Notes under the pieces: generated by a model
The model's input: the letters and a program-made list of their open reading frames with translations, nothing else
What the model was told of the DNA's origin: nothing
The model's database searches: none
Shown here: positions 13,766 to 26,957 of the stretch, piece after piece
Layout: the number at the start of each line of letters is the position of its first letter
Position numbering within the stretch: the first letter of the stretch is position 1
Program-made: the position numbers and the translations under genes
Assembly (NCBI GenBank): GCA_903821695.1
Contig: CAIJLX010000085.1
Span: forward strand, 1 to 32,719
Origin: an uncultured Alphaproteobacteria bacterium
GTDB taxonomy: Bacteria; Pseudomonadota; Alphaproteobacteria; Rickettsiales; CAIJLX01
Length of the DNA stretch: 32,719 nt
Direction of reading: 5' to 3'

Positions 13766-14569
13766 ATGCCTATGGATTTTATTCTCGCCATCATTGCATT
13801 TTTGAGCATCGCCTATCTGCTGGTAGTAGGGGTGATGTTCATTGTTCAACGTCATATGATCTATCACCCCGTGCGCCATTTAGGAGTGCCAGAATCTTAC
13901 GGCTTCATTCGCGCAAAACAAATCGAACTCCCCACCGATGATGGCCACACCATCAAAGCCTGGTACACACCGCCTACCACCCGCCAAGAAACCATCGTCT
14001 ATTTCCACGGCAATCGTGGCAATATCGGCAACCGTGCCCACAAACTCATAGCCTTCGCCAAAGAGGGCTACGGCGTGTTAGCAGTAAGCTGGCGAGGCTT
14101 CGGCGGTAGCACCGGCAAACCCTCTGAAAGGGGATTGCTCAAAGACGCCCACACTGCCATCAAGTGGCTCCACATCCCACATGAGCAGATGATCCTCTAC
14201 GGCGAATCATTAGGCTCCGGCGTTGCCGTACAAATGGCAACCGAATATCCAGTGTCCCTCATCATGCTAGAAGCCCCCTACGCCTCTATCCGAGGTCGCG
14301 CACAGGAGCTTTACCCGTGGTTACCAGTACACTATATTTTGCGCGATCATTTCGATTCGATCAGCCATATTAGTAAGATCAAATCACCGCTATTGATTAT
14401 CCACGGCGAGAATGATGAAGTAATGCCGGTTTCCCACTCCAAACGATTATTCGAAGCCGCCCCAGACCCTAAGCGCATGGTCCTCTATCCTCATGTGCAT
14501 CACACCGATTTTAGTATGCAGCAGATCTTGCAGCCGCTGGCGGAAGTTTTGGGTAATCGTAAACTCTAG
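13766..14569 (+). CDS. Membrane-anchored alpha/beta hydrolase
   Basis: 267 residues. Residues ~4-28 form one N-terminal hydrophobic helix (FILAIIAFLSIAYLLVVGVM), an anchor with the catalytic domain on one side of the membrane. The alpha/beta-hydrolase core shows the oxyanion strand YFHGNRGNIGNR, nucleophile Ser in YGESLGSGVA, acid Asp in HGENDEVMP, and His in HVHHTDF. It resembles the BEM46/ABHD13-like group (KAWYTPP, RGFGGSTGKPSE). Substrate unknown; an ester or thioester of lipid or protein is likely. Its last 59 bases overlap the 3' end of the opposing membrane-protein gene. Confidence 0.9.
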   Translation: MPMDFILAIIAFLSIAYLLVVGVMFIVQRHMIYHPVRHLGVPESYGFIRAKQIELPTDDGHTIKAWYTPPTTRQETIVYFHGNRGNIGNRAHKLIAFAKEGYGVLAVSWRGFGGSTGKPSERGLLKDAHTAIKWLHIPHEQMILYGESLGSGVAVQMATEYPVSLIMLEAPYASIRGRAQELYPWLPVHYILRDHFDSISHISKIKSPLLIIHGENDEVMPVSHSKRLFEAAPDPKRMVLYPHVHHTDFSMQQILQPLAEVLGNRKL

Positions 14570-16577
14570 AGACCTTACAAGACTCAATTTCAAGTGTGGT
14601 TCGTTCTGAAGGTTTTACGCCCAAATAGAGTTCGCTAGGTTTCCCAGCGATATGCTCTATCATTAAAAGCTGCGGATTTTGTGTATAATCCCGGCTATAG
14701 ACGTTGCGCGGCCCAGTTATTTTCCCTTTTACGGCTATTAAACCTGAGCTTACTTCATTCACAAGCAGTAGCGCGCGGTTCCCAATAACGGGTACGCCAC
14801 TTTTTTGGAATGTTATGTGATTCTTAACAGTAAGCTCAATATAATAGGTGCCTTTAGGCAATTTGTCGGTGATCAAAAGCATATCATTTTTTATACTGCA
14901 GTTAACATTACTCGCATATTTTTGCACATTGATTGGCTTCTTGCGTCTTTGCCAAACCACATGCAATGGCATTTGCGCCACTGGCTCAAAGCTCAGCAAC
15001 ATTTCTCTATAAAACCACCAATTTGCCCGCCGACTCCATGTCTCCCATGGAGTCCAATATTCGTCAGATGAAGGTCGCTCATTCGGAGTGGTTACAAAAT
15101 CAGGCTGTGAGTCTTTAAAAGACTGAAGATAATGCGCACGATTTTCTTTTCCTAAAGCATGAATAATATAGTCAATTCCGCTCGGTTGAAATTTATTGGA
15201 GAGAGCCTCCATCAACGAAGAATAGGTGGAAAATACGGTTTTATTTTCAAATTGTTTGGCTATTTTTATTTCCCTTTTTTGTGAATTTTCAAGAAACCCG
15301 CCAGCTGCCTCCGAATAAAAATGATCCTTGCCAGCAAGAATCAAAACTTCTTTTTTCCAATTCAAGAGGGAGACAGGGGCATAAAGAATGTAAAACAGGA
15401 CGCCGCATATGGCGGATGCCGGAATAAGGAACTTCTGATATTTTTCCTGAAAAATATTGGGAATGCACTTAAGGATAAAAAATAACGCGATAAAATAAAC
15501 AAGCCGCATAGGGGCACAAAAATAGCGTGCTTGTATACCACCACCTATTGTTGCAATTGCAGCAGCCGCAAGCGTTGCGGTAACAATATAAAAAAACAAA
15601 ATATCTTTAAGATCTGCCTTTTTTTGCGCCATGACGTAAATGGATATTGCTAACGCAGAGAGAGTAGGGAGGCTTACAATTGGAAATTCAACTACGTATT
15701 TTAATAACCCACCTAATGAAAATATTTTTTCATTTTCATTAAGCATGAAATACCAAAATTGATCTTTTGCAACTCCTCCAAAATTATAGCTTAAGGTACG
15801 CAGAGGGTAGCCTTGCGTGACAATAAAAAACAACAATATATAGCCAGCAATTACGCCCAAAAAATGTACCAATAAACTTGAGACTTTTGGTGATGCTCTC
15901 CAGACAAAAAGTAAGTAGGTGGCGGATAAAGCAGCAAGAGAAGCATAACCAAAATCATTGCTCCAACAGCCTTGTGCGCCAGCCATCACCCCCCATAACA
16001 ACGCTTCTTGGTTTTTTGTAAAATCCGCCTTTCGATTGTAAATAAGCAGCAATAGGCCCGCACTTAAGAATGGTAATGTAGCGCGAAGACCTAAAGCAGA
16101 ATTTTCTGCAGTGGAAAGTGTGGCAAAAACAGAGGGGGAAGAAGTGGGGTCAAGCGTGGGGATAATAGCATAAATCTGGACCAGAAAACTTAACGCCAAA
16201 GAAGTTTTCCAGTTAAATCTGAGCAAAATAAATAAGACAAAAGAGGCCAGTCCAAATAACCATTCATGTGAAAGTTCTGCGGAAAATTTGGAAGCCGCAA
16301 ACGTTTCGCCCATCAGTTTAAAAGGCAGATAGGTAACATAGGTAGTGCCAAAGCCCATATAAGGCTGGAAATCACGGCCTGGAACTTGACCAGCTGCCAT
16401 CCGGCGAAGTGGGTTATATGTCTGAAAATCGCCATTAATGGGGCTGTAACGCAGCATTTGCCCTTTCACAAGAGCCTGTGAAAGAGTTAGGTCAAACCAC
16501 ATTAACCCAATGCAAAACAACAGCGGAATATAATAGCGTTGCACAAGCGCCTTCGTACAATAGAATGAATACTGCAT
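14511..16577 (-). CDS. Large multispanning protein, GT-C-like; paralogue B
   Basis: 688 residues from the ATG at 16577 (a TTG at 16580 precedes it). The first helix is followed by a conserved loop, INGDFQTYNPLRRMAAGQ then VPGRDFQPYMGFG, whose Asp after the first helix and G-x-PGRDF pattern recall the first catalytic loop of GT-C glycosyltransferases. About ten helices extend to residue ~420. A soluble C-terminal domain follows, with WSRRANWWFYREML and a beta-rich end. It is a tandem paralogue of the gene at 16590-18617, 12 bases away. Its last residues (PPAAARSAAY) go beyond the paralogue's end and are encoded antisense to the hydrolase. Function is inferred only. Confidence 0.8.
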   Translation of the reverse strand: MQYSFYCTKALVQRYYIPLLFCIGLMWFDLTLSQALVKGQMLRYSPINGDFQTYNPLRRMAAGQVPGRDFQPYMGFGTTYVTYLPFKLMGETFAASKFSAELSHEWLFGLASFVLFILLRFNWKTSLALSFLVQIYAIIPTLDPTSSPSVFATLSTAENSALGLRATLPFLSAGLLLLIYNRKADFTKNQEALLWGVMAGAQGCWSNDFGYASLAALSATYLLFVWRASPKVSSLLVHFLGVIAGYILLFFIVTQGYPLRTLSYNFGGVAKDQFWYFMLNENEKIFSLGGLLKYVVEFPIVSLPTLSALAISIYVMAQKKADLKDILFFYIVTATLAAAAIATIGGGIQARYFCAPMRLVYFIALFFILKCIPNIFQEKYQKFLIPASAICGVLFYILYAPVSLLNWKKEVLILAGKDHFYSEAAGGFLENSQKREIKIAKQFENKTVFSTYSSLMEALSNKFQPSGIDYIIHALGKENRAHYLQSFKDSQPDFVTTPNERPSSDEYWTPWETWSRRANWWFYREMLLSFEPVAQMPLHVVWQRRKKPINVQKYASNVNCSIKNDMLLITDKLPKGTYYIELTVKNHITFQKSGVPVIGNRALLLVNEVSSGLIAVKGKITGPRNVYSRDYTQNPQLLMIEHIAGKPSELYLGVKPSERTTLEIESCKVSRVYDYPKLPPAAARSAAY

Positions 16578-16589
16578 CAACTATGAATA

Positions 16590-18617
16590 TTACTGCATCT
16601 TCCGGGGAAGATGTGGGAATTCATAAACGCCAGAAATGTGACAAGACTCAATTTTCAAAACCGCCCGCTCCTTTGGCGCTACCCGTAGTTTGAGGGTGCT
16701 CGGCATGCCGGCCTTGTGCTCCACCACCAACAGCTGGGGGCTTAGAGTATAATCCGCATTATAGGTTCGGATATCTGGCTGTGCGACATGCTTCCCCGCG
16801 ACTGCGTTAAAGCCGGAGCTTTCTTCTTCTACCACCAGTAATGCTCGGTTACCAATCAATGGTTCACCAGATTTTTTAAGTTTCGTTTTTTGTGGAACGG
16901 TTAATTCAATATAATACGTCCCTGCGGGTAGTTTATCTGTTAACTCGAGCGAGCTTCCGTTCACCTTGCAGCTCACTTGAGAGATGCGTTTTTTTGTATC
17001 GAGTGGCTGTGGCCTTTTCTTCCACACCACGTGATAAACCGTCTGCATCGCAGGCTCATGTTTTTTAATCATCTCGCGATAGAACCACCAATTCACCCTG
17101 CGGCTCCAGACTTCCCATAGGGTCCAAAGTTCATTGGGTGTCGTTACAAAATCTGGGTCGGTCTGCGCGAAGGAGATGAGATATTCCTCCCGATTCTCTT
17201 TGCCCAATGCATGAATAATATAATCAATCCCACTAGGTTGAAAATTTCCTGAGGCGGCATCCATGAGTGAAGAATAGGTCGAAAACACTTTCTTATTTTT
17301 AAACTGTTTCTGGATCACCATTTCCTGCTTCTGCGAATTGGAAAGATAACCACCTGCCCACGCCGAATAAAAATAATGCCCCTCGGTTTTTGCCTCGATT
17401 TCTTGCTGCATATTGCGGATTGAGACAGGTTGAAAGGCAGCATAAAACCCAACGCCACAAAGCACAGCTATCAGCAAAATAAAGTTATTAAACCGAGGCG
17501 AAGGTACTGGAATAAGTTTTAGTAACACAAACAATGCGGCAAAAGGCATCAGCCGTAGTGATGCCGAAAAATAACGCTCCATGATTCCGCCGCCGATGGT
17601 TGAAAGCAGGCCTGCGGCTAGGGATGTGGCGAGGATGTAGAAGAATAATATGTCCCGCAAATCGGGTTTTCTTTGTCGCCAGTTATAGAGGAATATGCCT
17701 GCAACAAAAGCTGCTGAGATGCCGGCTAATAAGAAGATGCGCTTGGCTTTGACATATTGCATTAGCGAGAAGACTTTGCCCTCTTCATCCAACATGAAAT
17801 ACCAAAACTGATCTTTTGCCACCCCCCCCAAATTATAGGTGAGTGCACGTATTGGATAGCCATGTGTGGCGATAACAAAGAGGGCAATGAACCCGATAAT
17901 GAGGCCGATCAAGTGAGGGACAACCCAACTTCTGCCGCGAAATAAAAAGTAACTGGCGGAGAGCACAACCATTGAGGTGAAGCCATAATCATTGCTCCAA
18001 AATGCTTGGGCACCTGCGATAAAGCCCCAGATCAATGCCTCCATATCGCCGGAGAGTTTAGCTTTGCGGCGATAGATCCATAATAATAACCCAGCAGTTA
18101 AAAAGGGCAGGGCGATGCGGACACCTAGGCAGGAATTTTCGGCGTGCGAGAGGGCGGAAAAAGTTTGGCCGAAGGGGAGGGCGGTCTCGGCGATTTCCCA
18201 GTCCATGGTGAGGGTGTAAAGATAATCCGACGCGACATAAGCATAGAGCTGCAGGATGAAGCTAAGTGCGAAGGCGGTGAACCAATTAAATCTTAATAGG
18301 CGAAAAAGCACGAGTGAACCGAGACTGAATAGCCACATATGCATCAATTGGGCGGAGAATTTTGAAGCCGAGAATGTTTCCCCCATCAGCTTGAAGGGGA
18401 GGTAAGTGACATAGGTGATACCGAGGCCCATATAAGGTTGGAAATCACGGCCGGGGACTTGCCCTGCGGCCATTCGGCGCAGAGGGTTATAGGTCTGAAA
18501 ATCGCCGTTGATGGGGTTGTAATGGAGGATTTGGCCCTCGAAATAGGCTTTCGAAATGGTGAGGTCTAACCACATCAGGCCGATGATCAATAATAAAAAG
18601 GTAGATGTGCGTTGCAT
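16590..18617 (-). CDS. Large multispanning protein, GT-C-like; paralogue A
   Basis: 675 residues. The N-terminal ~85 residues are almost identical to paralogue B (INGDFQTYNPLRRMAAGQ, YLPFKLMGETF), and shared blocks recur through the membrane part: AENS.LG, AGAQ.FWSND.G, GGVAKDQFWYFML and IGGGI. The soluble part shares SGIDYIIHALGKENR and VNWWFYREM. DNA differences in the conserved loop are mostly at third positions, so selection rather than recent copying keeps the loop. It probably sits in the inner membrane and could transfer a lipid-linked sugar. It is first in a two-gene minus-strand unit and divergent from the glycan operon across 44 bases. Confidence 0.8.
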   Translation of the reverse strand: MQRTSTFLLLIIGLMWLDLTISKAYFEGQILHYNPINGDFQTYNPLRRMAAGQVPGRDFQPYMGLGITYVTYLPFKLMGETFSASKFSAQLMHMWLFSLGSLVLFRLLRFNWFTAFALSFILQLYAYVASDYLYTLTMDWEIAETALPFGQTFSALSHAENSCLGVRIALPFLTAGLLLWIYRRKAKLSGDMEALIWGFIAGAQAFWSNDYGFTSMVVLSASYFLFRGRSWVVPHLIGLIIGFIALFVIATHGYPIRALTYNLGGVAKDQFWYFMLDEEGKVFSLMQYVKAKRIFLLAGISAAFVAGIFLYNWRQRKPDLRDILFFYILATSLAAGLLSTIGGGIMERYFSASLRLMPFAALFVLLKLIPVPSPRFNNFILLIAVLCGVGFYAAFQPVSIRNMQQEIEAKTEGHYFYSAWAGGYLSNSQKQEMVIQKQFKNKKVFSTYSSLMDAASGNFQPSGIDYIIHALGKENREEYLISFAQTDPDFVTTPNELWTLWEVWSRRVNWWFYREMIKKHEPAMQTVYHVVWKKRPQPLDTKKRISQVSCKVNGSSLELTDKLPAGTYYIELTVPQKTKLKKSGEPLIGNRALLVVEEESSGFNAVAGKHVAQPDIRTYNADYTLSPQLLVVEHKAGMPSTLKLRVAPKERAVLKIESCHISGVYEFPHLPRKMQ

Positions 18618-18632
18618 AACATTCTTTTACAA

Positions 18633-18646
18633 CGCAATGAATTGCG
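18633..18646. promoter_or_regulatory. Palindrome in divergent intergenic region
   Basis: CGCAAT-GA-ATTGCG is a perfect 6-bp inverted repeat in the 44 bases between the minus-strand paralogue pair and the plus-strand epimerase gene. It is well placed to be an operator for both units, but could be chance. Confidence 0.3.
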
Positions 18647-18661
18647 GTATCAACTTCCAAT

Positions 18662-19399
18662 ATGAAAACCTGTTTAATTGGACATACCGGATTTGTCGGC
18701 AGCAACCTGGCAAGCCAGTATAGCTTTACCGATAGCTACAATTCCAAAAACATCTCCGACATTGCGGGGAAGGAATATGATTTGGTCGTCTGCGCTGGCG
18801 TGCAGGCGAAAAAATGGTGGGCCAACCAAAACCCAGCGGAAGATTGGGCGGGCATTGAGGCGTTGCTCAAGCATCTGGATAATGTGCAGGCCAAACGCTT
18901 TGCGGTTATTTCGAGTGTTGATGTTTATCCAAAAACGAACGGTGTTGATGAGGAGTTTGATTGCTATGGTGAGACGAACCACCCTTATGGAACACACCGC
19001 CTATGCTTTGAAGATGAAATTCGCAAACGTTTTGATGAAGTATCATTGTTCCGCCTCTCCGCCTTGTTTGGCAAGGGCCTGAAGAAAAATATTATTTATG
19101 ATATGATGCACGATAATTGCCTGGAGATGATTAACCCCAACAGCAGTTTCCAGTGGTATGATTTGAGCAATCTGTGGACCGATGTTCGCACCTCGATGGC
19201 CAAACATATTAAGCTCATCAATCTTGTGAATGAGCCACTCGAAAGCTCTGCGATTGCAGATTTGTTCCCTGGCAAAAAGATCGGCTATAAGCCCTCGCCC
19301 GAAGCGCATTATAATATCAAGACCATCCATTCCCCAACCGGCTATCTCAAAACCAAGCAAGAGGTGCTAGAGGATATCAGGCAGTTCGTATGCGCCTAA
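18662..19399 (+). CDS. NAD-dependent epimerase/dehydratase-like protein
   Basis: 245 residues, short for an extended SDR but with the fold's signatures. The nucleotide-binding motif is GHTGFVGSN (residues 7-15), VVCAG follows at 42-46, and the catalytic region has ISSVDVYP (83-90). The active-site Tyr is Y109 in HPYGTHR, where the usual Y-x3-K reads Y-x3-R, so the catalytic Lys is replaced by Arg at 113. The likely substrate is a nucleotide-activated sugar, which it might reduce, epimerise or only bind. It opens the plus-strand glycan operon and overlaps the next gene by 10 bases. Confidence 0.8.
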   Translation: MKTCLIGHTGFVGSNLASQYSFTDSYNSKNISDIAGKEYDLVVCAGVQAKKWWANQNPAEDWAGIEALLKHLDNVQAKRFAVISSVDVYPKTNGVDEEFDCYGETNHPYGTHRLCFEDEIRKRFDEVSLFRLSALFGKGLKKNIIYDMMHDNCLEMINPNSSFQWYDLSNLWTDVRTSMAKHIKLINLVNEPLESSAIADLFPGKKIGYKPSPEAHYNIKTIHSPTGYLKTKQEVLEDIRQFVCA

Positions 19400-20190
19400 C
19401 GATTTCGAATCTCGCCTGGGAAAATAATCTGGAAGCAGAGGTGTTTGCTGAACTCAAAAAACGCGACATCTCTGCCATCGAAATCGCTCCCACCAAAATC
19501 TGGCCCGATTGGCGCAACATCAACGAAACTTCGATGCAATTTTTTCGTGAGCGAGTGTCAGGTTTCGATGTCTCCTCCTTTCAATCACTCCTCTTCGGTA
19601 GGCCAGAACTTTCTATTTTCGGCAGCGATGAAATCAAGCAACAAACCCTTCGCCACTTGAAAATGGTTGCTGACCTCGCCGCCAGCCTTGGCGCAAAACC
19701 GATGGTGTTTGGCTCACCTAAAAACCGAGATAAAGGTGAGCGCACAGCAGAGGCCGCATTCGCTGAAGCCAAAGAATTTTTCTACACCATCGGCAGTTAT
19801 TGCGAAAAGATTGGCGTCACCTTGTGCCTTGAAGCAAACCCAACTCAATATGGCTGCAACTTCATCACCAATGCCGGGCAGGCAGCGGAGTTAGTGCGTG
19901 CCGTAAACTCATCCGGCTTCCGTTTGCATCTCGATACTGCCTGTATGTTTTTGGCGGGCGATGATCTCGCAAAAACGATTCTCGATAACCGAGATATCTT
20001 GGCGCACTTTCATGTGAGCGAGCCAAACCTAGGCAATTTCGCTGAGCCACAATCGCCACATAAAACTGCAGCATCGGCACTTAAACAAATTGGTTATCTG
20101 GGCTATGTCTCGATCGAGATGCTAAACAAAGAAAACACGCTTCAGCCCATTACGGAGGCACTGGATTATGTCCAACGAACTTATTCCTAG
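19390..20190 (+). CDS. Sugar phosphate isomerase/epimerase (TIM barrel)
   Basis: 266 residues of the AP-endonuclease-2-like xylose-isomerase fold. It starts MRLTISNLAWENN. Metal-site candidates follow the family pattern: E148 in CLEANPTQYG, D181-x-A in LHLDTACM, H214 in LAHFHVSEP, and E244 near the C-terminus in VSIEMLNKE. Such enzymes isomerise or epimerise keto- or aldo-sugars with a divalent metal. Overlaps of 10 and 23 bases with its neighbours show tight co-translation, so it probably shapes the same sugar as the flanking epimerase-like protein. Confidence 0.8.
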   Translation: MRLTISNLAWENNLEAEVFAELKKRDISAIEIAPTKIWPDWRNINETSMQFFRERVSGFDVSSFQSLLFGRPELSIFGSDEIKQQTLRHLKMVADLAASLGAKPMVFGSPKNRDKGERTAEAAFAEAKEFFYTIGSYCEKIGVTLCLEANPTQYGCNFITNAGQAAELVRAVNSSGFRLHLDTACMFLAGDDLAKTILDNRDILAHFHVSEPNLGNFAEPQSPHKTAASALKQIGYLGYVSIEMLNKENTLQPITEALDYVQRTYS

Positions 20191-20959
20191 AGAAGTCCCG
20201 GCTTACGAAAAACATATTTTCTGGGACGCAAAAACCAAATACGCCGTACTCATCCCCGTCATCAACGAAGGCGGCCGCATCCAAGCCCAACTGCGTAAGA
20301 TGATGGCCGTTCCTGGCATGCCCGATATCATCATCGGCGATGGCGGATCAAAAGATGGCTCACTCGATTTTGAATTCCTCAAAGAATGCAACGTCCGCAC
20401 CTTGCTAGTCAAAACCGGCCGCGGAAAACTCAGTGCACAACTCCGCATGCTCTTCGATTTTGCACTAAAGGAAGGTTATGCCGGCGTCGTCACCATCGAC
20501 GGCAATAATAAAGATAGCGTCGAATCCATCCCCCATTTCGTCGCCGCACTTGAAGCTGGTTTCGATTATCTGCAAGGCTCCCGCTATATTAAAGGCGGCA
20601 AAGAAATCAACACACCATGGGATCGTAAACTCGGCCTAAAATATATCCACGCCCCCTTAATCAGCCTCGCCGCTCGCCATCGTTATACGGACACCACCAA
20701 CGGCTTCCGTGGCATCAATAGCCGAATCTTGAAGGATCCTAGAGTCCAGCCCTTCCGCGATATATTTGATACCTATAATTTGCATTACTACCTAAGCATC
20801 CGCACCGCCCGTTTGGGTTATCGCATCAAAGAAATTCCAGTCACCAGGGCTTATCCTAACGAGGGGCCTACCCCAAGCAAGATAGGTGGATTCGCTGGCA
20901 AGTTCCATGTGCTGAAGCAGATGTTTTTGGCATGCATCGGCGCTTATAATCCGAAATGA
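20168..20959 (+). CDS. Glycosyltransferase family 2
   Basis: 263 residues, a soluble GT-A fold without membrane helices. The start of the fold is YAVLIPVINEGGRI, the nucleotide-binding strand is IIIGDGGSKDGS, and the metal-binding DxD region reads VVTIDGNNKDS. The TNGFRGI segment and the following DTYNLHYYLSIRTARLGYRI resemble dolichol/polyprenyl-phosphate sugar transferases (DPM-like). It may transfer a sugar to polyprenyl phosphate, making the donor for the GT-C-like protein encoded next. The next gene overlaps its stop as ATGA. Confidence 0.87.
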   Translation: MSNELIPREVPAYEKHIFWDAKTKYAVLIPVINEGGRIQAQLRKMMAVPGMPDIIIGDGGSKDGSLDFEFLKECNVRTLLVKTGRGKLSAQLRMLFDFALKEGYAGVVTIDGNNKDSVESIPHFVAALEAGFDYLQGSRYIKGGKEINTPWDRKLGLKYIHAPLISLAARHRYTDTTNGFRGINSRILKDPRVQPFRDIFDTYNLHYYLSIRTARLGYRIKEIPVTRAYPNEGPTPSKIGGFAGKFHVLKQMFLACIGAYNPK

Positions 20960-22749
20960 AGTCATTCAAGCTCATTGGTTTATTTGCCGTGCTGGGTCTA
21001 TTGCTGACCTGGGTATTGGTGCCGAATATAGATGTTGAGATTACACCTAATTATCCAAAAACAGCCCCGGAGGATGTCATCCCGGTTTTTCCCAATTATA
21101 AACCCTGGTATCGGGCAGAAGCCGGAGAGCAGTTACATTATAAAATAACCATTCAGAAATTTGATAATTTACAGATTGGCACCTTCCGCCTGTTGCCAGA
21201 TGATTGCATTCAAAGTGTGGTATTGAATGGGCAGGAAATGCTAAAAGAAAAGCCGCCTTTATGTGTTGTTAACTCCGGTGCTTCCTTCGCGCTTTCGCCT
21301 TATTTGCGGTGGGGCAGCAATACCCTCAATGTCATCATTTTAAGCCCCCAAAGCAGCGCAGGCTTAGATTTCTATGCGGATTTCGTAAACGACAATACCG
21401 GTAGGTTTCTACTTGGCTATTGGGTGCTCTTTTGGGTTGCGGTTGTCATTGCTATCGCAAGGCAGTTGAAATTTTCGCCGCTTATTCAGGTTTGTTTGTG
21501 TTTAAACACTGCGCTATTGTTTACTGCCGGTATAGTCTCTACCCGCCATATGCTGGCCCATGATATGAGCGCTTATGTTGATCACGTCGCTTATCTTTAT
21601 ACCCATTGGTGGCGAACGGATCCTTTTTACCACTCCGGCTTCCGGCCAACTTCGCTTTATTTTTTATTCTTGGCCTGGCTTGCGCGGTTAGGGAACCATT
21701 TATTATTGGGCGGTCTAATCTGGCGCGTATCCTCTCTCGTGTTTTACAGCATATTCTTATTTTCAGGCCTAAAAATAATCGAAAAAACATTACGCAATTA
21801 TGAGGCCAGAACAATTGCACAAGTTTTGTTTTTGTTTTGGCCACTTCACTTCATTCTTGCGTTTCATGTGAATAACGATACTCCGTTTTATGCCTTCTGC
21901 AGTTTTGCGTTATTGCGGTGGCTTTCCTATATTGAGCGACCGACGCTTCAAAATATCTGTATTGCTGTTGGTATAACAAGCCTCTCGCTATTGATTAAAT
22001 TTAATACCCTTATCCTTGGCCCTGTTATTCTTGCCGCGCTTTGGATGAAGCGTGATTTCTTGCTGAAAAATCTGAGTGACGGGTGGCGCAAAAAAAGAAT
22101 GCTGCTGATCCTGGCTGTTTTTATGCCCATAATAGCTTTGGGTACAGGGCCGGTGCATAGCGCCTATAAAGCACATTCTTTGAGTTATGATCCGGGAATT
22201 TATGGCGCTCAGGGTTCCGGCGGAGAGGGTATCAAGGCGCAAAATAACTTAAAGGCTTATTTGCCAACGGACACCACCTTGTTGCGGGATTCCCCTTATA
22301 TCCAACACGGCAATCTGCCGAGCCAACAAAATCTATGGAATTATTTGTCCAAAACTATGCTCTTTGGTGAGTACGATTTTTCTTCCCCCGAGATTGCAGA
22401 GATAATGGTGATGTGTCTTTGTGGTATGGCTCTAACAGTTCTTGCATCGGTCTTTTTGTTACTGAGAAAAGATAAAATAACCCCGGCTGCACTATTAAAT
22501 ATCTTGTTTTTGCTCAGTGCGCTTGCGGGGCTTGTTTTTTTCAGGGCGCAATATAAGCAAACGGCGGCACAGGATTTTCGCTATATTGTGCCGAGTTTAA
22601 TTCCGTTTGTCATGGCTTGGTCAAGCACCGTGGCGCAGTGGCAGCGCAGGGATCTTTGGTTTTTATACATTCCCGCCTATGCCAGCGCCGCTCTACTGAT
22701 TGCCAGCGGCATTGTGTTGTATGAGTTGTTTTTCTATTATTTGCCATGA
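20956..22749 (+). CDS. Multispanning GT-C-like glycosyltransferase
   Basis: 597 residues. After one N-terminal helix (residues ~5-23) comes a ~120-residue periplasmic, beta-rich domain, then a second helix near 150 and about ten further helices. The segment HDMSAYVDHVAYLYTHWW then RTDPFYHSGFRPTS looks like a GT-C catalytic loop, with an Asp soon after the helix. GT-C enzymes move sugars from polyprenyl-phosphate donors on the outer face of the inner membrane. ATGA overlaps with both the upstream GT2 and the downstream oxidoreductase argue for one operon. Assignment to GT-C is by overall architecture, not by identified homologues. Confidence 0.75.
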   Translation: MKSFKLIGLFAVLGLLLTWVLVPNIDVEITPNYPKTAPEDVIPVFPNYKPWYRAEAGEQLHYKITIQKFDNLQIGTFRLLPDDCIQSVVLNGQEMLKEKPPLCVVNSGASFALSPYLRWGSNTLNVIILSPQSSAGLDFYADFVNDNTGRFLLGYWVLFWVAVVIAIARQLKFSPLIQVCLCLNTALLFTAGIVSTRHMLAHDMSAYVDHVAYLYTHWWRTDPFYHSGFRPTSLYFLFLAWLARLGNHLLLGGLIWRVSSLVFYSIFLFSGLKIIEKTLRNYEARTIAQVLFLFWPLHFILAFHVNNDTPFYAFCSFALLRWLSYIERPTLQNICIAVGITSLSLLIKFNTLILGPVILAALWMKRDFLLKNLSDGWRKKRMLLILAVFMPIIALGTGPVHSAYKAHSLSYDPGIYGAQGSGGEGIKAQNNLKAYLPTDTTLLRDSPYIQHGNLPSQQNLWNYLSKTMLFGEYDFSSPEIAEIMVMCLCGMALTVLASVFLLLRKDKITPAALLNILFLLSALAGLVFFRAQYKQTAAQDFRYIVPSLIPFVMAWSSTVAQWQRRDLWFLYIPAYASAALLIASGIVLYELFFYYLP

Positions 22750-23828
22750 TCAATCAGGTTTCAGTAATGAATGCTATCGTTATTGGCGGCGGGTTTTATG
22801 GATGTATGGTGGCGCTGCACCTGCATGAGAAGGGTATTCCTGTAAGCATTATCGAAGCAAGCGATAATCTGCTTTCACGCGCTTCGTATGTGAATCAAGC
22901 GCGTGTACATAATGGCTATCATTACCCGCGAAGCTTCAATACCGCCTATCGCAGCCGGTTTAATTCACCACGTTTTATCCGCGAGTTTAAGCCAGCCGTG
23001 GTCGATAATTTTACGCATTTATATGCCATCGTTCGCGCACGTTCTAAAGTGACGGCAAAACAATTCACCACCTTTGCCCATAACATCGAGGCCAAAATTA
23101 AGCCCGCACGAAAACTCCATCAGGAGTGGTTTAATCCGCGACTGATTGAGAGTGTATTTGAGGTGGAAGAATTCGCCTTTGATGCAACGATTTTGAAGGA
23201 AATTCTGCTGGAGCGATTAGGCGAAGACAAAATCCCGATTCATTATAATGAAAAAGTTTTGCGTTTTACTGAAGGCAAAGTAATCACTGATAAAAATGAA
23301 TACCCCGCGACATTGGTGTTCAACTGCACTTACTCGGCTCTAGAAGATATTGCCGGCACAGCACCGCTTAAACTGAAGCATGAAATTACGGAAATAGCGC
23401 TCGTCAAAGTGCCGCCATTGCTTTCTCAAATTGGGATTACGGTGATGGATGGCCCTTTCTTTTCGGTGATGCCATTTCCGGCAGAGTCGCTGCATTCGTT
23501 TACCCATGTACGCTATACACCGCATGCCAGCTGGAAGAGCGGCGAGAGGGCGACGCCCTATGGGCAGTTGGATGAATATCAAAGGCAATCACGCTTTCCG
23601 TTTATGGTGCGAGACGCGGCACGGTTTATGCCGATGTTGAAGGATTCCGAATATCAACATTCGCACTTTGAGGTGAAGACAGTGATGCAGACCAACGAAG
23701 TGGATGATGGAAGGCCGATTTTGTTCCAGCAACAGCCAGGGCAATCCGTCTATTCAATTTTAGGTTCTAAAATCGATAATATCTATGATGTACTGGAGCG
23801 CATTGATGCGGTATTGGTAAATGCATGA
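22746..23828 (+). CDS. FAD-dependent oxidoreductase (DAO-like)
   Basis: 360 residues, or 353 from an ATG at 22767 that has AGG 8 bases upstream; the 22746 start matches the ATGA coupling used by its neighbours. The FAD motif GGGFYGCMVALHLHEKG is at the N-terminus, with the acidic end of the second strand in IIEAS. The following ASYVNQARVHNGYHYPRS is typical of D-amino-acid-oxidase-like proteins found in polysaccharide clusters. There is no signal peptide, so it is cytoplasmic. It may oxidise or remodel the sugar or its amino group. The next gene overlaps by 4 bases. Confidence 0.85.
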   Translation: MINQVSVMNAIVIGGGFYGCMVALHLHEKGIPVSIIEASDNLLSRASYVNQARVHNGYHYPRSFNTAYRSRFNSPRFIREFKPAVVDNFTHLYAIVRARSKVTAKQFTTFAHNIEAKIKPARKLHQEWFNPRLIESVFEVEEFAFDATILKEILLERLGEDKIPIHYNEKVLRFTEGKVITDKNEYPATLVFNCTYSALEDIAGTAPLKLKHEITEIALVKVPPLLSQIGITVMDGPFFSVMPFPAESLHSFTHVRYTPHASWKSGERATPYGQLDEYQRQSRFPFMVRDAARFMPMLKDSEYQHSHFEVKTVMQTNEVDDGRPILFQQQPGQSVYSILGSKIDNIYDVLERIDAVLVNA

Positions 23829-24793
23829 AAAAAGAAACGTTTATATCGGTCGTAATCGTTACCTATAACGCCACGCGCTATATCGAGCTGGCGATCGAGA
23901 AGCTTTCGGCAGAATTATCGGCGCGCTATAAGGACTATGAAATCGTGGTGGTGGATGACGGGTCGCTTGACCGCACGGCGGAGGCGGTGGAGCGCCTGCA
24001 AAAACGCCTTTCCAATATCCAACTTTATGTTTTGGGGCGGCGCTATGGCGATGCGATTGCTACTATAGTTGGGCTTGATAACGCTATTGGTGATTATGTT
24101 GCTATCATGGACGCAGAAACAGATACGCCGGAAACAATTTCAGTAATGGCTGAGTTGGCGCAGAATGGATATGATGTTGTCTATGCCGCTGCAACTGGGC
24201 GCGAAACGCAGCAAAAGTTTTATGACAGGTTGGCTAAGCTTTTCTATAACCTGTTCCAGCGTTTTACGGGCAATGAAATTCCGGAGCAAGTTTCGCGTTT
24301 CCGTTTGTTTTCTAGGGCTGTGGTAAACTACATCACAGCAGTGAATGACCGGCACCAATTGCTTCGCGTATTACCGGCAATTTCCGGCTTTTCGCATACG
24401 GTGATCCCCTATGCGGCAAAAGCCTCTAGTAAGTCGCGTAGCCTAATGGGGCGAATAGGCGAAGGTATCAATGTGCTGTTCAGCTCATCCGTAAAGCCCC
24501 TGCGGTTTGCAACCTATACTGCACTTGCCGCAGGCCTGCTTAACCTTATTTATGCTGTTTACGTCGTAGTAGTAGCCTTGATTAAGCCGGATGTGGCAGA
24601 GGGCTGGGTTTCACTTTCGCTCCAGAGTTCCGGTATGTTTTTCCTGATTTCCTTGATATTAACAATTATATCCGAATATCTTTATGGAATTATGGAGCGG
24701 ACTCAAAACCGCCCGCTTTATAATATTGCACGTGAGTCTTCTAGCCTTGTGTTTAAGCGCAAAGAAGAATTGAACGTCGTCGATAAAAGCTAG
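23825..24793 (+). CDS. GtrB/DPM-like glycosyltransferase family 2 with two C-terminal helices
   Basis: 322 residues. The GT-A domain begins ISVVIVTYNA, has VVVDDGSLDRT at ~40-50 and the DxD region AIMDAETDTPE near 94-104. FRLFSRAVVNYI occupies the conserved place for this subfamily. Two membrane helices follow (about residues 232-258 and 268-291), as in GtrB-type transferases that attach a sugar to undecaprenyl phosphate at the inner membrane. It ends the plus-strand operon and overlaps by 4 bases the 3' end of the convergent gene at 24790. Confidence 0.9.
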   Translation: MKKETFISVVIVTYNATRYIELAIEKLSAELSARYKDYEIVVVDDGSLDRTAEAVERLQKRLSNIQLYVLGRRYGDAIATIVGLDNAIGDYVAIMDAETDTPETISVMAELAQNGYDVVYAAATGRETQQKFYDRLAKLFYNLFQRFTGNEIPEQVSRFRLFSRAVVNYITAVNDRHQLLRVLPAISGFSHTVIPYAAKASSKSRSLMGRIGEGINVLFSSSVKPLRFATYTALAAGLLNLIYAVYVVVVALIKPDVAEGWVSLSLQSSGMFFLISLILTIISEYLYGIMERTQNRPLYNIARESSSLVFKRKEELNVVDKS

Positions 24794-26214
24794 AATTTAT
24801 AGAGCTGATAGGTGGCGTCGGATTCGCCCCAGCCTTTGATGTTGCAGATGCTTTTTTGCACGCCGTAAATTTCTGGGGTGCTGGTTAATACATATTGCGG
24901 CTTGAATTGCTTCACGAAAGCGCCGGCATTTTTGCTGTTCATATTGGTGGGTTCGATATAGCTGGTGATCCCGGTTAAGGCGCCAAATTTATAGGAATAA
25001 TTTTTAGGCGGCAGCAGAATGGATTGCAGGGGCTTTTTTATGCAGGTGAGTAGTGGGGCGAACTCTTCCGGTTGTTGATTTATCTTATTAAACGCAAAAC
25101 CGATTGGGGCCGATTGGGTGATAGATTTTGCAAAGTAGGCACCTGCATAGGCTATCGATAGCAAGACAAAAGTGAGTGGAAGTGTGCGCACGATGGCTGG
25201 TTTGATTTTTGTGGGGAGAGTGAGCCACAGCAGAGCAACTAATAGGAAGAGTTGAAGTGGTACATAATAGCGGGTTTCGACGAAGCCGGTGAGCAATGTA
25301 GTGGATACTTGCGCTGCAATTAACAATGCAAAGAGGGTGATATTTTTATTTTTTTCGGAAGGCTTGGTGGTGAGTAATACGAAGCCTAACAGCCATGGTA
25401 GTGCACTGGTGGCGGTGAATAAGACGTCGGCGGATTTGATGATGGAGCCGATCGATTTTTTGATCCAGGTGGTTGGGTTATCCCATAGTAGTGGCACTAC
25501 GTCGGGATAATAATCGCGGACGAAAAGTGGGATGCTGGAGAGCACAGTGCGGCTGATATCGCTTATCCAGAAGGTGCCGAAATGGCTGTGGGAATAGGCG
25601 ACCCAAGGGAGCAATGTAATGAGCAGCGCAATATAATAAATGAAGAAGGGGCGGATGAAGAAGCCGAGGATCAAGGCGGGCAATAAAAAGTCGAAGCGGT
25701 TGAGGACACTTAAGCCAGCGACGATACCAGCCAGCAGGGCTTTCAGCGGCAGCGCATAACGTCTCGTTGCGTAGAGGTATAAAATGGTGAGGAGTAACAA
25801 AAGGCTTAAAGGCAACGTTCCGGCGGAAAAAAGTGCGGTGGTGTAATCGGGGGTGATCATTAGGGCGAAGAAGAGGAAGCAGCCGATTTCTTTTTCGCCG
25901 AACCAGATTTTGGATAGGCGTAGCAGCAATAATAAAGTTGGGATGGCGATGAGGAAGTTTAAGACGAAGCCGGCGTAAATACCGAGGTCATGAATGGCGT
26001 TTACGCTTGCGATGAGGATGGGCCAAAGCGGCGGGAAGGAAACACCGTAATTTGAGATGATATGGAATTGGCGGAAGCTGTTGATGTGGTAGAAATCGTG
26101 GAAGATGCTGCGGGAGAGTTCGTAATAGCTCCAGGAATCTTGCGAAAAATGGGAGTTTGTAGCGGTGGTTAGCCACAAAGCTCCGAGCATGAGGAATAAA
26201 GCAAAAAAGCGCAT
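24790..26214 (-). CDS. Multispanning GT-C/PMT-like membrane protein
   Basis: 474 residues from the ATG at 26214; a TTG at 26235, right after the upstream stop, is an alternative. The first helix is followed by SQDSWSYYELSRSIFHDF, matching the early D-S-x-x-Y-x-E-L-x-R pattern of PMT/ArnT-like GT-C enzymes. About ten helices follow to residue ~370, then a soluble tail of ~100 residues. It likely uses a lipid-linked sugar donor in the periplasm. It converges with the glycan operon and follows the repressor-like gene at 26236-26892 closely, so it may share that gene's transcript. Confidence 0.75.
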   Translation of the reverse strand: MRFFALFLMLGALWLTTATNSHFSQDSWSYYELSRSIFHDFYHINSFRQFHIISNYGVSFPPLWPILIASVNAIHDLGIYAGFVLNFLIAIPTLLLLLRLSKIWFGEKEIGCFLFFALMITPDYTTALFSAGTLPLSLLLLLTILYLYATRRYALPLKALLAGIVAGLSVLNRFDFLLPALILGFFIRPFFIYYIALLITLLPWVAYSHSHFGTFWISDISRTVLSSIPLFVRDYYPDVVPLLWDNPTTWIKKSIGSIIKSADVLFTATSALPWLLGFVLLTTKPSEKNKNITLFALLIAAQVSTTLLTGFVETRYYVPLQLFLLVALLWLTLPTKIKPAIVRTLPLTFVLLSIAYAGAYFAKSITQSAPIGFAFNKINQQPEEFAPLLTCIKKPLQSILLPPKNYSYKFGALTGITSYIEPTNMNSKNAGAFVKQFKPQYVLTSTPEIYGVQKSICNIKGWGESDATYQLYKF

Positions 26215-26235
26215 ATTACACGCTATAGCCGACAA

Positions 26236-26892
26236 CTAAGCTTTTCGCACCCATAGAATGCGCGAGGCGGATTTGAGTGAGACGAATTCCGTGGTTGGCG
26301 AGTTGGTAGCTTCGAGGTGGAAACGGCTTTCCATCGGGCTGCGCTTAAGGATGCGGAGAAATTTTTGACCGTCTAGTAATTCGACGATGGCTTCTTTGTT
26401 GATGGCTAGGTTTTCTAATTTTCCGTGATCGTCATAATAGAGAATATCACCGTGACGATAGGTTGGGGCGAGGCCTTCGCCTTCTACTCGTAGTGCAACA
26501 AGTGATGTGGCGGAAGAGGAAACGGCGTCGGCGAATTCGCGTTTGGTGGTTGCATCGAAATAGGTGACAGCACCTGCGCCACTGATGGTGCCGATGATTG
26601 GGATTGATTTGCTGTTGGTGGAAGCGAGTGGTTTGAAGTTTGAATCTTTTGATTCGCCGACTCTTTGCAAATACACCGCATCTTTCCCTAAAATCGCATT
26701 TAGCGTTTCGCTGCGAGGCACTTGGTATTCTTCTAGGAACTCGGCAATCTTGATTGCTTCGATAGGCGAGAATTGGCGGACATGGGCCAGGGCTTTGTTG
26801 ATTTTATCTTGCGGCAGACCAATCGCCTCACCCAGACTACGCTGAGTGATTTTTTTCGCACGCAGTATGGTTTTCAGCCATAAGGAATCCAT
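26236..26892 (-). CDS. HTH-XRE regulator with S24/LexA-like C-terminal domain, catalytic Ser missing
   Basis: 218 residues from the ATG at 26892 (a GTG at 26916 is possible). Residues ~6-55 form a helix-turn-helix of XRE type (KKITQRSLGEAIGLPQDKIN). Residues ~97-218 fit the peptidase S24 fold of LexA and CI repressors (IPIIGTISGAGAV, YRHGDILYYDD). The serine motif, expected as V-x-G-x-S-M-x-P, reads VEGEGLAP (136-143), so the nucleophile is Gly140, and the catalytic Lys appears replaced by Arg. It should therefore bind DNA and dimerise without self-cleavage. It probably acts as a repressor; its target is unknown. Confidence 0.85.
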   Translation of the reverse strand: MDSLWLKTILRAKKITQRSLGEAIGLPQDKINKALAHVRQFSPIEAIKIAEFLEEYQVPRSETLNAILGKDAVYLQRVGESKDSNFKPLASTNSKSIPIIGTISGAGAVTYFDATTKREFADAVSSSATSLVALRVEGEGLAPTYRHGDILYYDDHGKLENLAINKEAIVELLDGQKFLRILKRSPMESRFHLEATNSPTTEFVSLKSASRILWVRKA

Positions 26893-26957
26893 GCTTCTAT
26901 GTGCAGAATAAAACACACAAAAGCATCCGCCATTATCGCATAAAATCGCAAGCTTGT

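Follow-up and report, generated by a model that had tools for sequence, protein, structure and literature searches.

Five genes of an alphaproteobacterial locus, which code for an SDR, a TIM-barrel protein, a DPM-like glycosyltransferase (GT2a), an FAD oxidoreductase and a GtrB-like protein (GT2b), form a set that is not a one-off: it recurs in 18 other loci and is mobile, with copies on plasmids and chromosomes of different bacteria and in a prophage. Across related loci a GT-C-like gene is often found beside GT2a or fused to it, with GtrA or an SMR protein as a frequent companion. Taken together with the recurrence of the five genes, these partners point to a mobile relative of the three-component Gtr/Und-P systems, and envelope glycosylation of the three-component type is considered highly probable. 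The whole locus may be read as a mobile, Gtr-like cassette for the modification of an envelope glycan, making its own unusual donor sugar by a relay of enzymes for which GT2b serves as a dock; the chances of this complete reading are judged to be even. If it is true, the defined five-gene set, whose carriers include Cereibacter and Azospirillum, would provide a rare surface sugar by a route that can be transferred, through enzymes that are new to lipid-linked donors as far as the literature found goes.

Organisation of the locus

The window, that is, the whole stretch of DNA analysed here (32,719 nucleotides), forms contig 85 of a genome of 2.1 Mb that is assembled into 111 contigs. Six overlapping genes occupy positions 18662-24793 of its plus strand and code, in this order, for an SDR/epimerase-like protein (18662-19399, 245 aa), a putative TIM-barrel sugar epimerase/isomerase (19390-20190, 266 aa), GT2a (20168-20959, 263 aa), the GT-C-like protein GTC3 with an extracytoplasmic stretch at its N-terminus (20956-22749, 597 aa), an FAD-dependent oxidoreductase of the DAO fold (22746-23828, 360 aa) and GT2b, a membrane protein of the GtrB fold with two transmembrane segments (23825-24793, 322 aa). 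They are flanked by three multispanning proteins of the minus strand: GTC1 (14511-16580, 689 aa, GT-C-like by the motif GQ-PGRDF-PY-G-G, with a soluble C-terminal part), GTC2 (16590-18617, 675 aa, GT-C-like) and GTC4 (24790-26235, 481 aa, GT-C-like, with the motifs DSWSYYELSRS and FPPLWP).

All nine reading frames are present as an earlier sequence-only reading of this DNA had placed them, and so is the coupling that it described: the overlap is 10 nt between SDR and TIM barrel, 23 nt between TIM barrel and GT2a, and 4 nt (ATGA) at each of the GT2a/GTC3, GTC3/FAD and FAD/GT2b junctions. Within the plus-strand run, Pfam supports the Epimerase, AP_endonuc_2, DAO and GT2 folds. The same reading had seen no Wzx, Wzy or exporter, which holds for the window, but four genes of the Wzy_C family are found elsewhere in the genome.

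Recurrence and mobility of the five-gene set

The other loci lie on plasmids, on chromosomes of two classes and in one contractile-tailed prophage. The neighbourhoods were read for the 18 loci that contain both GT2a and the FAD gene, nine of them on plasmids, seven on chromosomes or contigs, one in the prophage and one on a 4-kb gut scaffold. All five core genes were found by tblastn in 15 of these loci, and the full set is counted in 17 when L011 and L017 are included, where a weakly similar ORF of 330 aa occupies the place of GT2b; the remaining locus is the 4-kb scaffold, which ends inside the FAD gene. The five genes mostly span 4.4-6.5 kb. Their order is variable, with SDR and TIM barrel adjacent in 17 of the tabulated loci and FAD and GT2b in 16. 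The sequence-only reading had named a synteny search for the FAD, TIM-barrel and GT2 genes as a check, and their co-occurrence elsewhere was confirmed. The joint conservation of the five clustered genes at 18 other loci goes beyond chance.

Related to their distribution, the FAD gene was detected in 5 of 397 other genomes of a phylum sample and in none of the other 216 genomes sampled from the order; it is also present on 12 plasmids, ten of them at 40-48% identity. For GT2a, the counts were 3 of 384 other genomes in the sample of the class and 3 of 274 in that of a second class, and its plasmids are the same ten records that carry the FAD gene at 40-48% identity (10/10). A search of the genome collection with a single protein as query gave almost no matches.

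Two carriers illustrate the mobility of the set. The cassette fills most of a 10.8-kb Psychrobacter plasmid (L014, NZ_MN657058.1), which also has mobC and relaxase genes and an SMR protein, and has no GtrA. At L031, it lies between the tail genes and the repressor of the contractile-tailed prophage. More distant relatives of the FAD gene occur in other settings: near SDR and TIM-barrel genes, without GT2 genes, in Mesorhizobium, and next to a Gfo/Idh reductase in L020 and L032. The second of these (IMGVR_UViG_3300032893_001286) is a viral contig with a head-protein gene, where the FAD relative stands between a DegT aminotransferase and the Gfo/Idh protein. As for the gut scaffold (L028, MT839812.1, 1-4015), it comes from human faeces and was deposited as an unverified bacteriophage; it contains SDR, TIM barrel, GT2a and part of FAD, and these genes leave no space for phage genes past the first few hundred bases.

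The two GT2 proteins

GT2b is supported as a GT2 protein by Pfam (Glycos_transf_2, 1e-25) and by a profile match to the GtrB protein sll0501 (4e-36). It has been reported that GtrB requires D94, D96, R122, D157 and R200 (PMC4728340). The window protein has D/E, A, R and S at D94/D96, R122, D157 and R200, respectively, so that D-x-E stands at the DxD site. In the alignment with GtrB, not one of the 18 cassette-type GT2b proteins retains D157 or the DxD motif; there is a one-residue gap near DxD, so that the loss of D157 is firmer than the assignment of single residues in the most divergent proteins. All catalytic residues are kept in the GtrB relative of an outgroup locus, L045 (G962:C6:71000-90500), which has GT2a, an amine-oxidase-type flavoprotein and a STELLO-like protein, and in which SDR and TIM barrel are absent. 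Because of these losses and of the intact outgroup, GT2b is probably a pseudo-GtrB, that is, GtrB-like by fold and not by catalytic residues. The sequence-only reading had listed the last gene of the run as a GtrB-like GT2; a working GtrB is not supported by the 18 cassette members. Besides, the presence of GT2a with an intact GtrB in L045 suggests that these two proteins can work without the triad of FAD, TIM barrel and SDR. GT2b is the least conserved member of the set (mean identity 0.27, versus 0.54 for GT2a); within its less divergent group the membrane part is better conserved (0.48) than the GT-A part (0.27-0.32).

GT2a is the likely active synthase, a soluble candidate polyprenyl-phosphate sugar synthase of the DPM type. 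Its Pfam match to Glycos_transf_2 (2.6e-4) is below the curated cut-off, and its best profile match is the dolichol-phosphate mannose synthase 5mlz. The acceptor arginine (GSRY) and the DTTNGFR motif, with its aspartate, of DPM synthase are retained, and DGN is found at the DxD site.

The putative sugar-modifying enzymes

The SDR belongs to the Pfam family Epimerase (9e-10) and retains GxxGFVG. Y109, G110 and R113 are invariant, and YxxxR (Y109, R113) replaces the YxxxK of classical and extended members. Since the catalytic lysine of that motif is missing, the normal role as a reductase may not hold.

The TIM-barrel protein (Pfam AP_endonuc_2, 5e-23) has profile matches to D-tagatose 3-epimerases, IolI and the 3-keto-D-glucoside 4-epimerase 6wn6. 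Its residues E148, D182, H208 and E243 are invariant and correspond to the Glu, Asp, His, Glu set of DTE/IolI-type epimerases; from the alignment and general knowledge they are presumed to be the metal ligands. Two studies give a context for such an enzyme: 3-keto-glucosides are substrates of TIM-barrel Mn enzymes (PMC10628242), and YcjQ/YcjR/YcjS of E. coli form a dehydrogenase-epimerase-dehydrogenase set that acts on glucosides (PMC11543891).

The FAD oxidoreductase (Pfam DAO, 3e-13) has the conserved motif RASxVNQARVHNGYHYPRS. By profile, the closest protein of known structure is L-alpha-glycerophosphate oxidase (4x9m), an alcohol oxidase; among the DAO-fold relatives of the FAD enzyme, by profile and by fold, amine oxidases predominate. 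Structure prediction from three sequences reached pLDDT 50 and pTM 0.55, and Foldseek supports the DAO-type Rossmann part only. Enzymes of the DAO fold often oxidise C-N bonds, and therefore the substrate could be an amine.

GT-C-like partners and flippases

The GT-C nature of the multispanning proteins is suggested by weak Pfam hits and by motifs. GTC3, with about 10 transmembrane segments, matches PMT_2 below the cut-off (2.7e-4), and no GT-C family is found in Pfam for GTC1, GTC2 or GTC4, even at a loose cut-off. GTC1 and GTC2 are tandem paralogues with 56% identity, and the class sample contained no relative of GTC2 in its 288 other genomes. A predicted structure of GTC2 with GTC1 reached a pTM of 0.32 and was not used. 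Most of the GT-C-like proteins are too divergent for mutual alignment, as is expected of acceptor-specific enzymes.

Other loci connect these proteins with the cassette. A homologue of GTC1/2 follows the cassette in the Roseobacter locus L012 (25%) and directly follows GT2a in L044, and a homologue of GTC4 is a C-terminal fusion to GT2a in L025 (29-30% over about 486 aa). In Cereibacter, the fusion partner of GT2a is a PMT_2-like domain, and in Rhodobacter it is a related one. Synteny at these other loci thus ties the minus-strand GT-C-like proteins of the window to the cassette.

GtrA is absent from the whole genome of the window. It is present in eight related loci, and on the plasmids of Rhodobacterales and Sphingomonas, as well as in L017, it comes after FAD; the SMR protein is found in one locus (Psychrobacter).

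Proposed mechanism and alternative explanations

We infer the order of the reactions, a chemistry on lipid-linked rather than nucleotide-linked sugars, the sugar and its acceptor. GT2a would load polyprenyl phosphate with a hexose taken from a nucleotide sugar, and the FAD enzyme would oxidise one hydroxyl of the polyprenyl-phosphate-linked sugar to a ketone. The TIM-barrel enzyme would then epimerise the carbon adjoining the ketone, which would be reduced by the SDR to give a rare epimer. GT2b, without catalytic residues, would most likely keep the lipid-linked sugar at the membrane, where the FAD enzyme could act on it. Flipping of the lipid-linked sugar would be carried out by GtrA or the SMR protein in relatives, and a GT-C enzyme (GTC1 to GTC4) would add the sugar to a surface glycan such as LPS. 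A cytoplasmic sugar pathway, loading on polyprenyl phosphate and transfer by GT-C enzymes outside the cytoplasm had already been proposed in the sequence-only reading, and this outline gains support from GtrA, the SMR protein and the GT2a fusions of the relatives. A relay of oxidation, epimerisation and reduction, for which YcjQ/YcjR/YcjS are a precedent, is given slightly less than an even chance, and its action on a lipid-linked sugar is a tentative and somewhat unlikely proposal. As a specific hypothesis, a pseudo-GtrB may have turned from transferase to dock, presenting polyprenyl-phosphate sugar to the flavoenzyme, so that oxidation, epimerisation and re-reduction take place on the lipid, in what would be a mobile equivalent of DprE1/DprE2 in proteobacteria, assembled from different enzymes; this is speculative and held to be unlikely.

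The main alternative concerns the carrier of the sugar. FAD, TIM barrel and SDR could act at an earlier stage, on a nucleotide sugar or sugar phosphate, so that GT2a would load the finished rare sugar on the lipid and GT2b would only anchor GT2a or aid flipping. This is a real possibility, short of an even chance, and it agrees with the Epimerase family of the SDR, whose usual substrates are nucleotide sugars, and with the tight SDR-TIM-GT2a block seen in many loci. However, the FAD gene nearly always adjoins that of the membrane protein GT2b (16 loci) and not SDR or TIM barrel, and action on a lipid-linked sugar is ascribed to the closest analogues, which are DprE1/DprE2 and the ORF13 epimerase of Citrobacter (PMC11127046). 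The flavoenzyme could also be an amine or amino-sugar oxidase, with a deaminated or keto sugar as the product instead of an epimer. The amine oxidases among its DAO-fold relatives and the DegT aminotransferase gene that adjoins FAD in L032 argue for this, but the best profile match is an alcohol oxidase, the glycerophosphate oxidase, and the core genes include no aminotransferase, which makes the proposal rather improbable.

It has also to be considered that GT2b might be an active transferase with unusual residues, so that two sugars on two lipid carriers would serve several GT-C enzymes. Two GT2 and four GT-C-like proteins are indeed present, and in the window copy the DxD site still reads D-x-E; the loss of D157 and DxD throughout the 18 cassette proteins, the intact residues of L045 and the low conservation of GT2b nevertheless leave this very unlikely. 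Finally, neighbouring genes vary widely between the loci and some carriers lie within larger polysaccharide loci, as would be found if this were an ordinary exopolysaccharide locus with genes together by chance and no single pathway. Such an assembly is hardly credible, since the same five families are found together in 18 loci. These lie on different replicons and in different classes, and among them are a prophage and the 10.8-kb plasmid, which has little else.

Comparison with known systems

The literature searched, which included few subscription journals, contained no account of this gene set and no characterised pathway that matches it. The cassette resembles the GtrA/GtrB/Gtr(type) systems for O-antigen glucosylation of Shigella and Salmonella phages in having a candidate polyprenyl-phosphate sugar synthase, a small flippase (GtrA in relatives) and GT-C-like proteins, and also in its carriage, here by one prophage plus plasmids. 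It differs from them in that the likely active synthase is the soluble GT2a and the GtrB-like protein lacks catalytic residues, in the three added sugar-modifying enzymes and in the want of GtrA in the window genome. If the pseudo-enzyme is truly conserved beside the flavoenzyme in the way proposed, a new role of the GtrB fold would be at hand.

On the working model, the mycobacterial DprE1/DprE2 pair is alike in altering a polyprenyl-phosphate sugar by means of an FAD enzyme and an SDR. DprE1 has the VAO flavin fold, whereas the FAD enzyme of the cassette has the DAO fold and not the VAO fold, and is accompanied by an extra TIM-barrel enzyme and the pseudo-GtrB. The three-component pentofuranose systems of Citrobacter youngae O1/O2 share with the proposed pathway a lipid-linked donor, a flippase, a GT-C protein with a soluble C-terminal domain and an SDR epimerase that alters the lipid-linked sugar (PMC11127046); they depend on a PRPP donor, a single SDR and a MATE flippase, in contrast to FAD, TIM barrel and SDR with a GT2 synthase here. 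In YcjQ/YcjR/YcjS, a TIM-barrel epimerase of 3-keto-glucosides works between two redox enzymes, which is the arrangement proposed here. Nevertheless, that set is NAD-dependent and catabolic and has no membrane or GT partners, and its kinship to the cassette is limited to the TIM barrel, at profile level.

Phage-encoded O-antigen modification is a precedent for lysogenic conversion (PMC8787464). Carriage of the cassette by plasmids and by a prophage suggests an effect on how the cell surface is recognised, like that of phage gtr genes.

Flanking regions and composition

An HTH plus S24 repressor-like protein (26236-26916, minus strand; Pfam Peptidase_S24, and HTH_3 below the cut-off) adjoins GTC4. 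It falls in the phage repressor family phrog_4 and is absent from 17 relatives; this weak evidence makes it a possible trace of the element that delivered the cassette. The prophage locus L031 likewise has a phrog_4 repressor beside its GT-C gene. A common prophage origin of both loci, considered from these repressors, is unsupported beyond a 33% match over 69 residues. When empty sites were compared, the left flank (abhydrolase) was common in the order, yet both flanks together were kept in none of eight relatives. Composition does not clearly indicate a recent arrival, with the exception of the low GC3 of GTC1 (0.38, versus 0.54 in its neighbour GTC2). The GC content is low (0.39) at 15001-16000, in the GTC1 region. 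Near the left end of the window, a tRNA-Ser (cga) is encoded on the minus strand (710-799).
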